From Bryum argenteum (Eukaryota; Streptophyta; Bryopsida; Bryales; Bryaceae), in assembly GCA_037043015.1 (NCBI GenBank), contig CM073325.1, positions 1,924,501 to 1,988,500 of the forward strand: a DNA stretch of 64,000 nucleotides, in the 5' to 3' direction. Made by a program: the position numbers and the translations under genes. Under the pieces are notes generated by a model, which saw only the letters and a program-made list of their open reading frames with translations, did no database searches and had not been told where the DNA came from. Of this stretch, positions 2,099 to 30,009 are shown piece after piece; position 1 is the stretch's first letter; the number at the start of each line of letters is the position of its first letter.

Positions 2099-2535
2099 CA
2101 GTCGGGTACAGAAATAATTCGAATTGCATTTGAAGGCAGTTTTTGAAAAAAGTTTGAAATGTGCCCGTATACTCAAAAATGTTCGGAATTGCAATCCGTA
2201 AAAGGCATTGGAACCACATAGGACTGTTTTATACTATTATTGCAAAAAATTGCTTCTTTTTTGTAAAATTGTTCAAAGAACTACAACTCTACATGTTCCA
2301 TCCAAAATTGACCACTGTCACTTTGTGCTTCAATTACGATGTTCATTTTCACTTGCAAAATTAATATGAGTGAAATTTGTTCTTTAGATACTCTAAAATT
2401 AATAAAACAGTCCTATGTGGTTCCAATGCCTTTTACGGATTGCAATTCCGATCATTTTTGAGTATACAAGCACATTTCAAACTTTTTTCAAAAACTGCCT
2501 TCAAATGCAGTTCGAATTATTTCTGTACCCGACTG
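2099..2535. mobile_element. Tc1/mariner-type MITE with about 133-bp inverted arms
   Basis: 437 bp starting CAGTCGGGTACAG and ending CTGTACCCGACTG, flanked by TA (2097-2098 and 2536-2537). The two arms (2099-about 2233 and about 2404-2535) are nearly perfect reverse complements around a loop of about 170 bp. The paralogous element at 7907-8883 has the uninterrupted site with a single TA. CAGT ends with TA duplication are the Tc1 signature, and a DD34E transposase relic lies 4.5 kb away. Confidence 0.85.
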
Positions 2536-3475
2536 TACATTTAGAAACTTTGAAGAGCCATATCTTCTTCATCCAAGGTCCGTTTTGGATGAAATCACTT
2601 GGGTTATGTTCCAAATCAAGTCTAGTTTGTGTTGTAAAATTTGCAAGCCCATACAATAAAGTATGAATTGATGGAATGCACTTTAGTGAAGACAGCTCTT
2701 GTTTTTGGGATTCCAAGCATGGGGCATGTATTACCATTGCAAGCCAATTATGTGAAATTAAAAATAGTCATTCATGATTTATTTATTTTCCATGGTCATG
2801 ATCTTAAGGTGATTCTTAACAACTTTGTAGTGAGAAGTTTTTTGATCCAAATGATTTTGCTATTGGATTTGCAATGATGTTTTGTCAACAGAAAAAGTGA
2901 GAAAATGGATGATATTTGAGGAGCTATATCTCCCTCATCCACCGTTGGATTTCAACTTAATTTTTTGGGATGGCCTCCAATTAGAGTCTAGTCTAAGTGG
3001 TAGAAACCTTAACAAGATCGAAGATGTTTTGAAGATAAGGCATGAAATTGAATGCAAAGGGTCTAGTTTTGGAATATTTTTCCTTTGTAAAAACTTCGGC
3101 ACTTTTTACCATTGCATGGCTTTTATTTGAGCCAAGAAATTTTTTTGATGAATTTTTGTTGGGTAAAGGACTTATTAAGATGAAGGTGAACATCTTTCTA
3201 GTTGGTGATTTTTTCATTGCAATAGGTATATTGGTAGCATTTCCACCTCAAAGTGAAAATGATGAAATTTTGCAGTTTGTTTTTGATATTAATATGGTAT
3301 GATCTCCCGATCTATAAGGCCTCATGACTCAAATTTTGGTCCACATGATCTTCGATAAGTCTATTACAAATTTGTACGGTTAAGATCTTAATAGCTTCTC
3401 TTGATTTTCATCTATGACGATTTTTAAGGAAATGTGCTTTTCTGCTAAAAATAGGCTCGGGTGTTTAGGGGTTAA

Positions 3476-7898: not shown

Positions 7899-7906
7899 AG
7901 CTCTAA

Positions 7907-8883
7907 CTCCTAAACGCCCGAGCCTATTTTTAGCAGAAAAGCACATTTCCTTAAAAATTGTCATAGATGAAAATCAAGAGAAGCTATTAAGATCTTAACC
8001 GTACAAATTTGTAATAGACTTATCGAAGATCATGTGGACCAAAATTTGAGTCATGAGGCCTTATAGATCGGGAGATCATACCATATTAATATCAAAAACA
8101 AACTGCAAAATTTCATCATTTTCACTTTGAGGTGGAAATGCTACCAATATACCTATTGCAATGAAAAAATCACCAACTAGAAAGATGTTCACCTTCATCT
8201 TAATAAGTCCTTTACCCAACAAAAATTCATCAAAAAAATTTCTTGGCTCAAATAAAAGCCATGCAATGGTCAAGACTACTGAACATTTTACAAAGGAAAA
8301 ATATTCCAAAACTAGACCCTTTGCATTCAATTTCATGCCTTATTTTCAAAACATCTTCGATCTTGTTAAGGTTTCTACCACTTAGACTAGACTCTAATTG
8401 GAGGCCATCCCAAAAAATTAAGTTGAAATCCAACGGTGGATGAGGGAGATATAGCTCCTCAAATATCATCCATTTTCTCACTTTTTCTGTTGACAAAACA
8501 TCATTGCAAATCCAATAGCAAAATCATTTGGATCAAAAAACTTCTCACTACAAAGTTGTTAAGAATCACCTTAAGATCATGACCATGGAAAATAAATAAA
8601 TCATGAATGACTATTTTTAATTTCACATAATTGGCTTGCAATGGTAATACATGCCCCATGCTTGGAATCCCAAAAACAAGAGCTGTCTTCACTAAAGTGC
8701 ATTCCATCAATTCATACTTTATTGTATGGGCTTGCAAATTTTACAACACAAACTAGACTTGATTTGGAACCTAACCCAAGTGATTTCATCCAAAACGGAC
8801 CTCGGATGAAGAAAGTATGGCTCTTCAAAGTTTCTGGATGTACATCCACAATGTCGTTTTTCGACATCGTGGGCGTTTAAGGG
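7907..8883 (-). mobile_element. Family B element, intact inverted copy (B2)
   Basis: 977 bp, reverse-complement of the element at 1690-3471 without either nested insertion, so it serves as the empty reference. Ends are CTCCTAAACGCCCG on the left and GGGCGTTTAAGGG on the right. Both flanks read CTAA (7903-7906 and 8884-8887) rather than TTAA. Open frames on both strands are conserved between the two copies because the DNA is nearly identical, so this is not evidence of coding. Confidence 0.82.
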
Positions 8884-19393: not shown

Positions 19394-19561
19394 TTAAATG
19401 TCCCTAGTCTTTTCTTCAATTAACCAATTGCACCACTTCCAAGATACTCTTACACTAACAAGAAAGCGTGCTTTGCTTTCTCATTTAGTGTTATAATTTG
19501 ATGATTAGTGTGTGACAGTATGGTGACGTGTGATAGTGAGTGTTGCTTTAACGGTTCGCAA

Positions 19562-19990
19562 TTAACTTACAGTTAGTGTTACACTTAGTCTTACAGTTAG
19601 AGTTAGTGTTACAGTTAGAGTTAGTGTTACAGTTAGAGTTAGTGTTACAGTTAGAGTTAGTGTTACAGTTAGAGTTAGTGTTACAGTTAGAGTTAGTGTT
19701 ACAGTTAGAGTTAGTGTTACAGTTAGAGTTAGTGTTACAGTTAGAGTTAGTGTTACGGTTCGCAATTAATATATAGTTAGTGTTACAGTTTGAGTTAGTG
19801 TTACAGTGCAATTTTCGCAATAAGGTAGAGTTAGTGTTACGGTTCGCATTCGCAATTAAAGTAGAGTTAGAGTTAGTGTTACGGTTCGCAATTAACGTAG
19901 AGTTAGAGTTAGTGCGGTTCCCAATTAACGCAATTAATGTAGAGTTAGTGTTGTGTTGCGAACGGTTCGCAATGTAGAGAGTGTTACGGT
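19562..19990. repeat. 18-bp minisatellite with degenerate tail
   Basis: Nine perfect tandem copies of AGTTAGAGTTAGTGTTAC at 19594-19755 are followed by degenerate GTTAG/GTTACGG-rich repeats to about 19990, which include 'ggttcgcaatta' spacers. All six frames stay open through the array, so the long ORFs here are an artefact of the repeat. The plant telomere repeat is TTTAGGG, so this is not telomeric. Confidence 0.9.
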
Positions 19991-24392: not shown

Positions 24393-24632
24393 TATTGAAA
24401 ATGTATCCATTCTTTACTGCACATACAATTCTTCATACAGAGTGTCACTTGGCAGCAACGTGTATTTGACAGTGTTCGAGAGGTGATGAGGTCACACTCG
24501 TCAACCACCTACTGAGGTCTTTATCGCCAGCTACCTACTCATTCGTTATTGTCAACCACCTACCGAGATCTCTCATCACAACTAACTGGAAGATGAAACG
24601 ACACTGAATGATATGTCTTTGTTCATTCAATA
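24393..24632 (-). repeat. 3' LTR of the copia element
   Basis: On the element's strand it begins TATTGAATGAACA and ends TTTTCAATA. The ends form a TATTGA/TCAATA inverted pair, not the usual TG/CA. Immediately upstream on the element strand is the purine-rich GAGTGGGAG (plus-strand 24633-24641), a polypurine tract. Confidence 0.88.
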
Positions 24633-27130
24633 CTCCCACTCAGAGACATTATCAAAGACCATATCTCGTATACGTTCTCATTCTCCCACTTCTTTGACAA
24701 TCTGAGACATGTTGAGAGAAGAACGAAGCATGTGAAACTTGGCTGATGGTAATGCTTTGGTGAAGAGATCGGCTAACTGTGCTGCAGTGGAAACATACTT
24801 GACCTCAATCTCCTGATTAGCTTGGTATTCACGAATTACATGATAAGCAACTCCTCTATGTTTGGTTCGTCGGTGATGCTCCGGGTTGTGAACCAGACGA
24901 ATTGCGGCTTGATTATCGGTGAAGAGAAGCGTTGGTCCGGATTGAGGAAAGCCAATGCTAGCCAACATACATCTCGCCCAGTACGTTTCTTTGCTAGCAA
25001 GAGAAGCTGATACATACTCGGCTTCAATTGTGGAACTCGCCATACATAACTGCTTCCGAGATAACCACATCACTGGACCAGAGTTCAGTAAAAGAACGAT
25101 GCCACTCGATTTCCGGTCGTCAGTATCGCTGGCGTAGTCAGCATCTGCATATGCGACAAGCTGATGTCGAATTGGTGAACGCGAATAGGAGATTCCAAGA
25201 TTAATAGTCCCGCGCAAGTACTTGAAGATCCGAGTTAGTGCAGTATAGTGTATCTGACGGAACTTGGATAAGAATTGGGCCACCTTTGAAACCGCAAAGA
25301 GCAAGTCAGGGCGTGTAGACGTAGCCAAATATAGGCAGCAACCCTCCATTTCTTGATAAGGAAATACTGGAGAACGGTCATTGTCATGTGCACGGACGCT
25401 TTCAAGATGCACATTCGAATCTGCAGGAGTGGAAACCGCATGGGAGTCTTCGAGACCAAATCGAACGAGAATCTCCAAGGTAAATCTACCCTGATCAATG
25501 GTAAGCTCAAAAGAGAGTCGATGTCGGCAGATTCTGTAACCGACGTATACATCAGCTGGCCCATCAGTAACTTCAAATGCTTGCTTAAGATACACTATAA
25601 GCTCCTTCTAACGCTCCATCGACTTAATCACGACAAGGCCATCATCAACGAAGATTGTTGTAATCAAACGAGGGGCTGATTTTGAAACATATACACACGG
25701 ATCCTCCGGAATTGGATGCAGATCAAAGTGTCGTAAGAAACGATCAAACTTCAAATTCCACCCTCGAGGTGCTTGTTTCAAGCCATAGATGCTTTTCTTC
25801 AGCCTGTAAACACCACCACCAGGAACTACATAACCTGGTACCTGATTCATATATATCTCCTCAACCAAGTCCCCATGAAGAAACGCAGTCTTAATGTCGA
25901 ACTGAAGCATCTCACAATCTTCGGCAGCCGCTATAGATAGAATAGTTCTGAGGTTGTCTGCTTTCGCAACAAGCGCATATGTTTCAGCATCGTCAAGTCC
26001 TGAAATTTGCGAGAAGCCACGAGCAACCAAACAAGCCTTAAAGCGGGAAATGCTTTCGTCCGCATTATGCTTGAGCTTGAACAGCCATTTACACGAAATT
26101 GGCTGACGATTGGGGGGAGGAGGTTGTAATTGCCAAGTATTGTTTGCAACAAGGGAACGAAATTCATCGTCCATTGCTGCTTTCCAGAGATCACACTCGG
26201 GTGATTTAAGTGCCTCGTCATAGGTTCTAGGTTCCTCAATGAGCATCGAATGAGTAACAAGGTTGGCCGAAGAGGCTACAACAGGCAAAGTACGCATAAG
26301 CTCATGCACTGATCGTGTTCGAAGTACAGGGTTCAACTCATCTGGAGAGTCAATAGACGTTGGAACCGAAGAGATACTCCCACTCAGCGGTACCGAGGAA
26401 ACATCCCTCCCACTGGTCGATGAAGCATCCCTCCCACTGGCCGAGACATCGGATGCTTGTGATGGTGCGAGAGACGCATCAACTCCAGAAGATTGAACGC
26501 CAGGCTCACTAACTGATGTTGTCTTGGGATTTGGAAAAAGAGGGTCCAAGTAGACCTCACGGTCAGAGTCCACATTGACATACTCGAGGGAGTCTTTATC
26601 AAAAACAACATCTCACGAAATGATGACCTTCTTCTCGTCCAAGCGCCATAGACGATACGCTTTCGAAGTCTCACAGTATCCCAGAAATAGACATTCAAAG
26701 GTCTTACTGTCAAGCTTTCTACGAAGCTGCTTGGGCACATGTACATACGCAATACTTCCGAATGTAGGAAGATGATCTACCGATGGAATCTCACCAAAGA
26801 AGCGCTTGTAAGGCGTTACACTCTGAATTGTTCGTGAGGCTACACGATTTAATGTATAAATTGCAGTAGCAATAACCTCTGCCCAGAATTTTCGGTCCAG
26901 CCCTCGAGCGTGTAACATGCAGCGAGCTGCTTCCACTACAATTCTATTATCTCGCTCTGCCACTGAGTTTTGCTCTGGTGTGTATGGAGACGAGAACTCG
27001 TGACGGATACCATGGTTCAAACAAAATTCTTGAAAAGCTTTGTTTCTGTACTCTGTACCGTTATCACTCCGGATGGGAGTGATTCGCCGATCAAGAGTAG
27101 AGTGAATGAAACGGGACTGAATTCTCTCTT

Positions 27131-27594
27131 TGGTCACAACTCAAACACTGCTAACCTAACAAGATCTGAGAAAACCGGACTAAACAAGACCGAATAGACT
27201 TGAACAGAACAGAACAAAGCAGAACTAAAGAAGCAAAGTACAAACCAAAATTTACTGAGAGAGAGGGACTAAGGCGTACCTGACCGAATGCCTCCAAATG
27301 GCCCCGGCCAGTTCTATTTATACTCTGCCTAACCGCCCTTGGAACTTTCTAGAATGTTCCAATGGCGGGCCCCACCATGGAACTTTCCGGAAGGTCCTAG
27401 AGGTGGGCCCCACCTAGATAACCGCCCTTCTAGAAGACTCTAGAGGTGGGCCCCACCTTCTCGAAGCTTCTATGGTAGGTCCCACATAGGCCATCTACCT
27501 CAAATTCTAAAATTTTCTAAAAACTCCTAAAATGGTTTCAACTATCTATCTACTTTTCTAGCAAACACAAAAATCTAGTTCTTGCCCTGTTACA
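27131..27594 (-). mobile_element. Nested LTR-like insertion with heat-shock-element promoter
   Basis: About 464 bp interrupt the integrase frame between 'FQALYTYV' and 'KERIQSRF'. On the minus strand it starts TGTAACAGGGC, as plant LTRs often do, and contains a TATA box. It has no coding capacity. The composition (repeated GTGGGCCCCAC palindromes, HSE array, TATA, then a T/A-poor leader) is that of a promoter-bearing LTR, so it is probably a solo LTR. The right boundary and target duplication could not be fixed, which keeps the class open. Confidence 0.6.
27314..27470 (-). promoter_or_regulatory. Heat-shock-element array plus TATA box
   Basis: On the minus strand TATAAATAG lies at 27314-27322. 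Upstream of it come a perfect four-unit HSE (GAA-TTC-GAA-TTC with 2-bp gaps, 27341-27360), a three-unit HSE (27379-27397), a two-unit site (27427-27436) and a three-unit HSE (27458-27470). Between them are three GTGGGCCCCAC-type palindromes that also fit TCP-binding sites. The proximal HSE is 19 bp from the TATA box. Confidence 0.75.
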
Positions 27595-28654
27595 GTGAAC
27601 GTAGGTGTACAACGCTTGGAACTTAGAAAAGACTTCACTCTTGTGAACCAAAAAATAGACAAATTGATAATGGCTATTATCATCTTTGAATATCACAAAG
27701 TAGCGATGGCCACCCTAAGAAATTAATTCCAGCGGTCCAGATACATCGGTGTGAAAAAATGCTCCTGGAGATCGTGCTTTCTTTACATCACGATCTACAT
27801 CAGAACTTTTTGGAAACGGCAGCCTATGTTGCTTGCCTGCCAAGCAGCCCTTGCAAGTTAATATCTCACTCTTTCGAGAAAGAGTGAGACCCGAAACAGA
27901 ACGATGGCGGGCCATGTACTGAATGATGGGATAATTTGCATGGGAGAGTCGCTCATGCCAGCGCTTAAGGTCACGACTGGAATGCGTAATCTTCTTCTCA
28001 TGGACAGAAGTATCAGAAGAAACTAGACTCACTGAAGATTGAAGTTCGCAAACTTCAAAGTCCATTCGTAGGAGACCTTGCACCTTGTGCGCAGTGAAAA
28101 GCAATCTTCTAGTTCCATGGTTTGCAATCATCTTACAATAATCATGGAGAAAAATGATCGCTAAACCGGCTTCCATAAGCTAAGGAATGGAAACTAGATT
28201 ACGCTGAAGGTTGGATACAAAAAGAACATTGGAAAGCATTTCCGTTGTTGTACGACCGCGTATGGTTGAAGAAACTAAGATATCACCAATACCTCGAACA
28301 TGTAACTTATGATCATCTGCGACCAAGACATTCCATGAGCCTTGTGGAATAGGCTCAAAGAGTACGAACTAGGAACGATTATTCGTCATGTGTTCGGTCG
28401 CAGCGCTATCCGCGAACCAATTACTCACATCCACAACATTATTGTTCGATCCATGTTTAGATCGAGTGCAATATGCTTCACTGTTTAACTGTGATGATAC
28501 ATCAGAATGACAAGTCTCAGACTCAGAAGACAATGTCGAGCTCTTTGAAGCATGAGCATGACTGCGATGCTTGAGTTTGAGGTTTTTCTTGTTCTGACTC
28601 TTGACATTCTTCCGGTCATTGCTATCATCACTCACCGTCTCATACGGACACTCT

Positions 28655-29452
28655 TTACTCCAATGATTTGGTTCTCCACAATTGTGGCATACTGAGTGTG
28701 CGTGCCTTAAGCCGCTCAAGCCTTTTTGCCTTTTCTTTCTGTTTCAACTCTAGACAAGAATCTCGAGTACGTCCTGATCGAGAGGACTTGGACAAAGAAT
28801 ATTCTGCGGAGTGACTAACCTGACCTGACGTGTAGAATGCTTGATCAAGCTGATGATCAGACTTGCCAGCACGTTCTTGCATAGACGCTTCTTGCCTGAT
28901 AAGTCGAGACTGAAAAGAGCGGAGTGTTTGTTCAGCAGGAGGAACACTATCCCATGCTAACAGAAGAGGTTCAAAGCTAGGAGGGAGTGAACATTTGATT
29001 TTGCTCAAAATTTGAGCATCAGAAATGTGTTCACCAAGATCTACAAGTTGCCTTGCAAGATGTTTAATCCTCGTGATAAACGATACTATGGACTCTTTCT
29101 CTTCTAGCTTACAGCGATAAAACATCTCTTGCAAAACAACTACACTCTCTTCAGAATATTGAGTGTGGTATGATGCAAGTTGCTGCCACATTTCTGCTGA
29201 CGTATTACACTGAAGAACCTCATTTCTGTGGTTTTTGTCAACGGAGTTGAGAATAGCCACCACTGCGGTTTTATCCTTGCGCTCCCAGGCTCCCGGATCA
29301 GGCGCCACTTCCTTAGACTCCTTCCCCGTAACAATGTCATACAACTCCTTTGATTTGAAGAGAAACTGCATTTGGAGCTTTCACACCTGATAGTTTGTAC
29401 CATCGTATTTTTCAACAAACGCCATGTCACGACTCTCCAGTCCTTCTGCCAT
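28655..29452 (-). pseudogene. Decayed copia gag
   Basis: The likely start is the ATG at 29452, giving 'MAEGLESRDMAFVEKYDGTNYQV' followed by TGA at 29383-29381, exactly where the copia gag motif has tryptophan (YDGTNYxxWK). The frame then stays open for 238 codons with the UBN2-type gag domain ('SAEMWQQLASYHTQ', 'LLAWDSVPPAEQT'). It runs off into a stop at 28655, while the CCHC knuckle continues in another frame from 28719, so one frameshift separates gag from the knuckle. Confidence 0.88.
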
Positions 29453-29565
29453 CACAATACTTTGGTGAAAAGTTTACAAACTCAGAATTCGGATAGAAAC
29501 AAAGGTCTGATCGGCACACAACCACCGAATCAACCTGCCAACAATTTTCAAGAAAATCAAGAACT

Positions 29566-29725
29566 GAAGGTACCGCACTGATAAGCGGACTACTCCTGAA
29601 GGTACCGCACTGATAAGCGGACTACTCCTGAAGGTACCGCACTGATAAGCGGACTACTCCTGAAGGTACCGCACTGATAAGCGGACTACTCGTGAAGGTA
29701 CCGCACTAATAAGCGGACTACTTCT
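29566..29725 (-). repeat. Five tandem 32-bp hairpin units in the copia leader
   Basis: Units start at 29566, 29598, 29630, 29662 and 29694. Each contains the palindrome GGTACC and the inverted pair CCGC-ACTGATAA-GCGG. The first four are nearly identical; the last has changes. They lie between the primer site and gag. Confidence 0.9.
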
Positions 29726-29737
29726 CTCAAAATTCAC

Positions 29738-29772
29738 CGCAGCGGAGAAGGCGTAAGGTGGCACCCATAACC
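29738..29772 (-). promoter_or_regulatory. Primer-binding site matching the 5' half of initiator tRNA-Met
   Basis: Directly after the 5' LTR the element strand reads GGTTATGGGTGCCACC. The plus strand CCCATAACC is the anticodon arm of plant initiator tRNA-Met, and the match continues upstream with small gaps (CGCAGCGGA-AAG-CGT-GGTGG). Priming from an internal half-tRNA is the Drosophila copia mode; typical plant copia elements use the tRNA 3' end. Confidence 0.75.
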
Positions 29773-30009
29773 TATTGAAAATGTATTCATTCTTTACTGC
29801 ACATACAATTCTTCATACAGAGTGTCACTTGGCAGCAACGTCTATTTAACAGTGTTCGAGAGAGGTGATGAGGTCACACTCGTCAACCACCTACCGAGGT
29901 CTTTATCGCCAACTACCTACTCAGTCATTATTGTCAACCACCTACCGAGATCTCTCATCACAACTAACTGGAAGATGACACTGAATGATATGTCTCTGTT
30001 CATTCAATA
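29773..30009 (-). repeat. 5' LTR of the copia element
   Basis: 237 bp, aligning along its length with 24393-24632 with few differences, including a missing 'aacg' and an extra 'ag'. On the plus strand it starts TATTGAAAATG and ends TTCATTCAATA. Confidence 0.88.

Follow-up and report, generated by a model that had tools for sequence, protein, structure and literature searches.

A solo Ty3/gypsy chromovirus LTR in Bryum argenteum carries an array of perfect heat-shock elements upstream of its TATA box and is a candidate heat-responsive promoter

The window analysed here is the whole stretch of 64,000 nucleotides from Bryum argenteum contig CM073325.1 (positions 1,924,501 to 1,988,500), and in it a complete solo LTR of 488 bp occupies positions 27107-27594 on the minus strand, within an older copia element. 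The features of the locus are given below in window coordinates, with positions in the LTR in brackets.

24393..30009, minus strand: older copia element hosting the LTR insertion, bounded by flanking direct repeats 24393-24632 and 29773-30009
27102..27106, unstranded: one copy of the target-site duplication GTGAA, read at the LTR edge
27107..27594, minus strand: solo LTR of a Ty3/gypsy chromovirus family, with TG...CA ends, GTGAA flanks and 488-bp genome matches
27314..27322 (LTR about 273-280), minus strand: TATA box TATAAATAG, 19 bp from the four-unit heat-shock element (HSE)
27342..27359 (LTR 236-253), minus strand: perfect four-unit HSE, 4P type, from the scan for HSE runs
27347..27458, minus strand: direct repeat of 31 nt in three copies (27347-27377, 27385-27415 and 27428-27458) at spacings of 38 and 43
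27380..27392 (LTR 203-215), minus strand: perfect three-unit HSE, 3P type, from the scan
27428..27440 (LTR about 158-168), minus strand: degenerate HSE, two perfect units and an imperfect third, read from the sequence
27458..27470 (LTR 125-137), minus strand: perfect three-unit HSE, 3P type, from the scan
27595..27599, unstranded: second copy of the target-site duplication GTGAA, read at the LTR edge

A sequence-only reading had described an LTR-like insertion with an HSE array at its promoter position, and this is borne out by the TG...CA termini, the 5-bp GTGAA target duplication on both sides and the placement of the HSEs before the TATA box; the interval then proposed, 27131..27594, has the correct end, while its start falls 24 bp inside the true LTR edge at 27107. 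The same reading had placed the promoter inside the integrase gene of another copia element, and indeed the LTR is surrounded by minus-strand copia domains (Retrotran_gag_2, gag_pre-integrs, rve, SH3_retrovirus and RVT_2) with rve interrupted. The ORF that flanks the solo LTR on one side begins at rve profile position 65, which places the insertion in the copia integrase core. The two direct repeats of the copia element are 93.8% identical. The LTR has the same orientation as its host, so transcription starting in it would proceed into the copia RT in the sense direction. Other repeats in the window include an inverted repeat whose 941-nt arms, at 2534-3474 and 7904-8844, are separated by 4.4 kb and complementary at 98%, a tandem array at 19494-19871 with 18-bp (and 12-bp) steps and 15 overlapping register copies listed, and five 32-bp tandem units at 29564-29723, the first four identical, in the copia region near the 29773-30009 repeat.

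Scanning the whole 64-kb window for alternating GAA/TTC units at 5-bp spacing, in runs of at least three perfect units, returned three runs, every one within the solo LTR. Together with the degenerate site these make up the four HSE clusters that had been claimed, including the perfect four-unit site 19 bp from TATAAATAG, and on the LTR strand all four lie upstream of the TATA box. Three of the four belong to a direct repeat in which an HSE stands beside a GGGCCCAC-type motif, each 31-nt copy consisting of an HSE adjoining a GGGCCCCAC motif, and the outer copies show 71% and 84% identity to the middle one. The GGGCCC motifs take the form GGTGGGCCCCACC at 27402-27414 and 27445-27457, GCGGGCCCCACC at 27365-27376 and, in degenerate form, GTAGGTCCCAC at 27475-27485; the palindromes reported beside the HSEs are thus real as GGGCCC motifs, but they are near-palindromes and none is perfect. 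We take the GGGCCCCAC motif to resemble the class I TCP site GGNCCCAC.

We compared the array with shuffled sequence. Among 5000 dinucleotide shuffles of the LTR, 47 held any run of three or more units, with neither a four-unit run nor three runs in any of them. Shuffles of the whole window (n = 40) averaged 1.275 runs of at least three units and 0.025 of at least four, so three HSE runs per 64 kb are unremarkable in number; the remarkable part is that three perfect runs stand within 129 bp beside a TATA box. Since the array is partly a repeat, its sites are not independent of one another. Across the genome (258.8 Mb, 25 contigs), a four-unit HSE with a TATA box 10-38 bp away occurs at 176 sites and the reversed pattern at none, and all of the matches listed (100 of the 176) lie within the sequence of this same LTR family.

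A genome search with the 488-bp LTR gave matches, as singles or pairs, at 99-100% identity, and the 40 of its 190 candidates that were scored all span the whole query at 99-100%. Twenty loci, containing 22 of these 40 places, were taken with their flanks: solo LTRs bordered by identical 5-bp duplications make up 11 of them, and the other nine have an internal region. Two complete elements, of 5585 and 5574 bp, have LTR pairs that differ at 1 and 3 of 488 sites, respectively, and in both TTGGTATCAGAGC stands after the 5' LTR. In a set of 23 LTRs, chosen for similarity, each copy departs from the majority base at 0-4 of 488 positions, and this near-identity, with the small differences within the two pairs, indicates recent movement.

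A further sample of 97 LTRs was drawn via the primer-binding site rather than the HSEs, using 57 genome-wide matches with up to two mismatches allowed, and leaves out 17 of the 57 3' LTR regions. With strict ends 88 of the 97 were used and B-type starts were lost; with relaxed ends 94 were used, the others being one that ran off the end of its stretch, one truncated and one without a match. Identical target duplications flank 25 of 32 complete LTR pairs under strict ends and 28 of 37 under relaxed ends, and some of the complete pairs without them belong to tandem arrays, such as those on C2 at ~2.18 Mb and on C5 at ~13.48 Mb. The heat-element proposal had been tied to the existence of LTR pairs in the genome, and paired LTRs with matching duplications are present. 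Arrays of the form LTR-body-LTR-body, with shared LTRs, were observed on C2 at 2.175-2.191 Mb and on C5 at 13.473-13.483 Mb. All three perfect HSEs are kept in 83 of the 94 LTRs, the four-unit HSE and TATAAATA each being present in 91; eight LTRs have the four-unit site and one three-unit site, two have two three-unit sites and one has three three-unit sites.

Domain searches identify the family. ORF pieces of two copies (L009 and L010) matched Retrotrans_gag, Ty3_capsid, retroviral proteases, RVT_1 and RNase H, and also Integrase_H2C2, SH3_Tf2-1 and Chromo, in the order gag-protease-RT-RNase H-integrase, with the chromodomain of L010 (PF00385 Chromo, E 2.7e-14) following SH3_Tf2-1. The integrase core (rve) had no match in the family pieces searched, and the integrase was recognised via its Integrase_H2C2 zinc finger. 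With an LTR pair, a primer site and a 5-bp target duplication also found, this LTR family is a Ty3/gypsy chromovirus. Its size and short LTR presumably fit the Reina clade of chromoviruses.

Apparent divergence between copies amounts to several percent internally, compared with less than 1% in the LTRs chosen for similarity. When eight copies were compared with L009 in four internal pieces, 1066 substitutions were counted alongside 598 indel events; single-base events account for 467 of the indels, and 350 of 370 distinct indels shift the frame. Among the nine copies with internal sequence (L009-L011, L014, L015, L020, L022, L023 and L027) the number of indels exceeds half that of substitutions. 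The differences cluster, with 33% of substitutions and 32% of indels at CAG/CTG ±1 (background 9% and 10%, respectively), and no indel enrichment at homopolymers (17% vs 18%); likewise, of the 57 LTR columns that vary often, 34 are near CAG/CTG, compared with 65 of 488 in the background. At nine of 12 checked sites, uniformity is commoner in whichever LTR of the two has the site closer to its own unique flank, although sites 284, 471 and 481 break this rule and a binned distance table for 3' LTRs shows no steady rise. Nanopore calls are described as suffering from base modifications absent from training (PMC10687267, as cited), and the divergence more likely stems from methylated CHG sites that were miscalled and put right only where reads were anchored in unique flanks. 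Dating or pseudogene calling in the repeats of this assembly is therefore unsafe and, because assembly error seems to account for much of the frame damage, we leave the broken gag-pol and the internal divergence uninterpreted.

The two LTRs of a pair also differ in a patterned way, with the outer parts uniform and the inner parts variant, and an order test over 25 pairs scored 406 of 531, where 20000 permutations averaged 265 and never exceeded 373. In many copies of the series L029-L125, the 5' and 3' LTRs of one insertion differ at the same places, namely LTR sites 8, 33-34, 269, 284, 314, 339 and 373-390. At sites 33/34, allele A is found in 53 of 55 5' LTRs and allele B in 25 of 39 3' LTRs (12 with A and two with neither). 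Genome-wide, the matches listed include at least 35 A/B, 14 A/A, 4 B/B and 2 B/A combinations of 5' and 3' LTR, and at least 37 A and 3 B among unpaired sites. Recombination of circles or cDNA into solo LTRs was considered as a source of this asymmetry, recombination into solo LTRs having been reported for Tf2 of fission yeast (in the portion of PMC7175516 cited) and integrase-independent retrotransposition likewise (in that of PMC12786077); it was demoted, as the CAG/CTG clustering, the frameshifts and the flank-distance pattern favour base-calling error. Such error is also the likelier explanation of most of the asymmetry, although sites 33/34 are not CAG/CTG.

Within the 94 LTRs the four-unit HSE has a mismatch of 0.18%, compared with 2.35% for the whole LTR, and its variability ranks 15th lowest of 471 18-bp LTR windows and 3rd of 150 in the array. 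Taken as a set, the HSE letters do not vary significantly less than the rest of the array, as 2546 of 20000 randomly drawn sets of positions scored as low. The array at LTR 96-262 (window 27333-27499) contains no CAG/CTG in 167 bp, where shuffles average 5.5 and 1 of 5000 was as low, a figure that the repeat structure makes optimistic; five CG remain in it. The array is thus free of the CAG/CTG error source and we make no claim of purifying selection from its low mismatch. Furthermore, in a young family with error-like differences, intact HSEs may only reflect recent copying. The ONSEN promoter reportedly lacks CG and CHG sites, and the parallel suggests that the CAG/CTG-free array may escape CHG silencing.

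From the sequence features above, we think that the solo LTR at 27107-27594 comes from a Ty3/gypsy chromovirus that was active recently, and that its U3 promoter is probably organised to work as a heat-shock enhancer. HSF trimers activated by heat would then occupy the array in full-length copies, and transcription starting in the 5' LTR would supply genomic RNA, whose reverse transcription would yield new insertions mobilised by heat, with a second factor possibly acting at GGGCCCAC; recombination between the two LTRs of such a copy would leave a solo LTR like the one here. Plant HSFs act in other stresses too, so heat need not be the sole trigger. Provided that HSFs can reach it, an LTR that places one 4P, two 3P and one degenerate site directly before its TATA box would be expected to respond strongly to heat, by analogy with the HRE classes of which the four-unit type is described as strongest and the three-unit type as moderate (cited portion of PMC5059998), and with the ONSEN HRE, which in the account cited binds HSFA2 and couples ONSEN to HSFA1 and HSFA2 (PMC3907296).

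It is unlikely, on balance, that the array is mainly an enhancer for another factor, such as a TCP-type protein at GGGCCCAC, with the GAA/TTC units a by-product of repeat duplication and of no special role in heat. A GGGCCCAC-type motif does recur in each repeat copy, the HSE letters are no more conserved than the rest of the array, and PhTCP20 binds the PHRE1 LTR in a yeast one-hybrid assay (as cited from PMC8656106). However, the four sites differ in sequence and linkers and yet three of them keep perfect 5-bp phasing, and the HSE at 27458-27470, beyond the three repeat copies that were aligned, is perfect as well.

We consider it rather improbable that the family was once heat-driven and is now silent, surviving as methylated, decaying copies and solo LTRs with no present heat response. 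The longest stop-free stretch in the nine internal regions (seven of them partial) does not exceed 436 aa, solo LTRs account for 11 of the 20 loci taken with flanks, and the clustering of differences at CAG/CTG may mean dense CHG methylation, all of which would accord with silence. Nevertheless, the frame damage is of the kind attributed above largely to the assembly, and the near-identical LTRs and the two complete pairs speak for recent movement.

An ONSEN-type copia element, as the sequence-only reading had it from the HSE-driven LTR architecture and the location inside a copia element, is refuted. The copy here consists of the LTR only, and the full-length copies that bear this LTR belong to Ty3/gypsy, having a chromodomain and RT before integrase, whereas ONSEN/ATCOPIA78 has integrase before RT (RVT_2); copies carrying this LTR matched no copia model.

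Returning to the heat-shock enhancer, we put forward only tentatively, and with more doubt than confidence, that this chromodomain Ty3/gypsy family independently reached the ONSEN strategy, in which a composite enhancer of repeated HSE and GGGCCCAC motifs, depleted of CAG/CTG, would let heat-activated HSFs override the silencing of an otherwise CHG-methylated element and so power a recent burst. If this LTR responds to heat, one genome of 259 Mb would contain up to 176 dispersed promoters of the same design, and it could be tested whether a heat promoter helps an otherwise silenced element to spread.

Among known systems, heat-responsive gypsy elements are already on record. PHRE1 and PHRE2 of moso bamboo, described in the cited part of PMC8656106, are Ty3/gypsy elements of 4980 and 5515 bp whose 5' LTR promoters are more active under heat, and PHRE2 has its TATA at 280 and a 3' LTR of 465 bp, close to the 273 and 488 found here; PhTCP20, which binds the PHRE1 LTR, is itself lowered by heat. 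The cited account names no HSE for either, and the likeness is drawn at the level of description. Ty3/gypsy elements of Cryptomeria and Pinus are likewise raised in expression under heat in the portion cited of a review (PMC9780303), which mentions no HSE array for them, the likeness again being drawn by description. In open-licence papers we found no report of a multi-HSE or 4P HSE array in a chromovirus LTR. In its promoter the present LTR, with HREs of the 4P and 3P types upstream of the TATA box, resembles ONSEN/ATCOPIA78 of Arabidopsis, for which the cited accounts describe a short LTR (440 bp) with four nGAAn units as HRE, binding of HSFA2 to the LTR and transcription driven by heat (PMC3907296, PMC5059998); unlike this family, ONSEN is Ty1/copia, and of the four HSE sites in the LTR here three are repeated together with a GGGCCCAC-type motif. 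In the Brassicaceae, COPIA37 and TERESTRA gained 3P or 4P HREs in their LTRs on their own, and differ in being copia, with HREs that are species-specific and elsewhere in the LTR (PMC5059998, as cited). The HSE-bearing, heat-activated plant LTRs in these sources, as far as cited, are thus copia and, if our reading is true, the same promoter solution would have been gained in the chromovirus branch.
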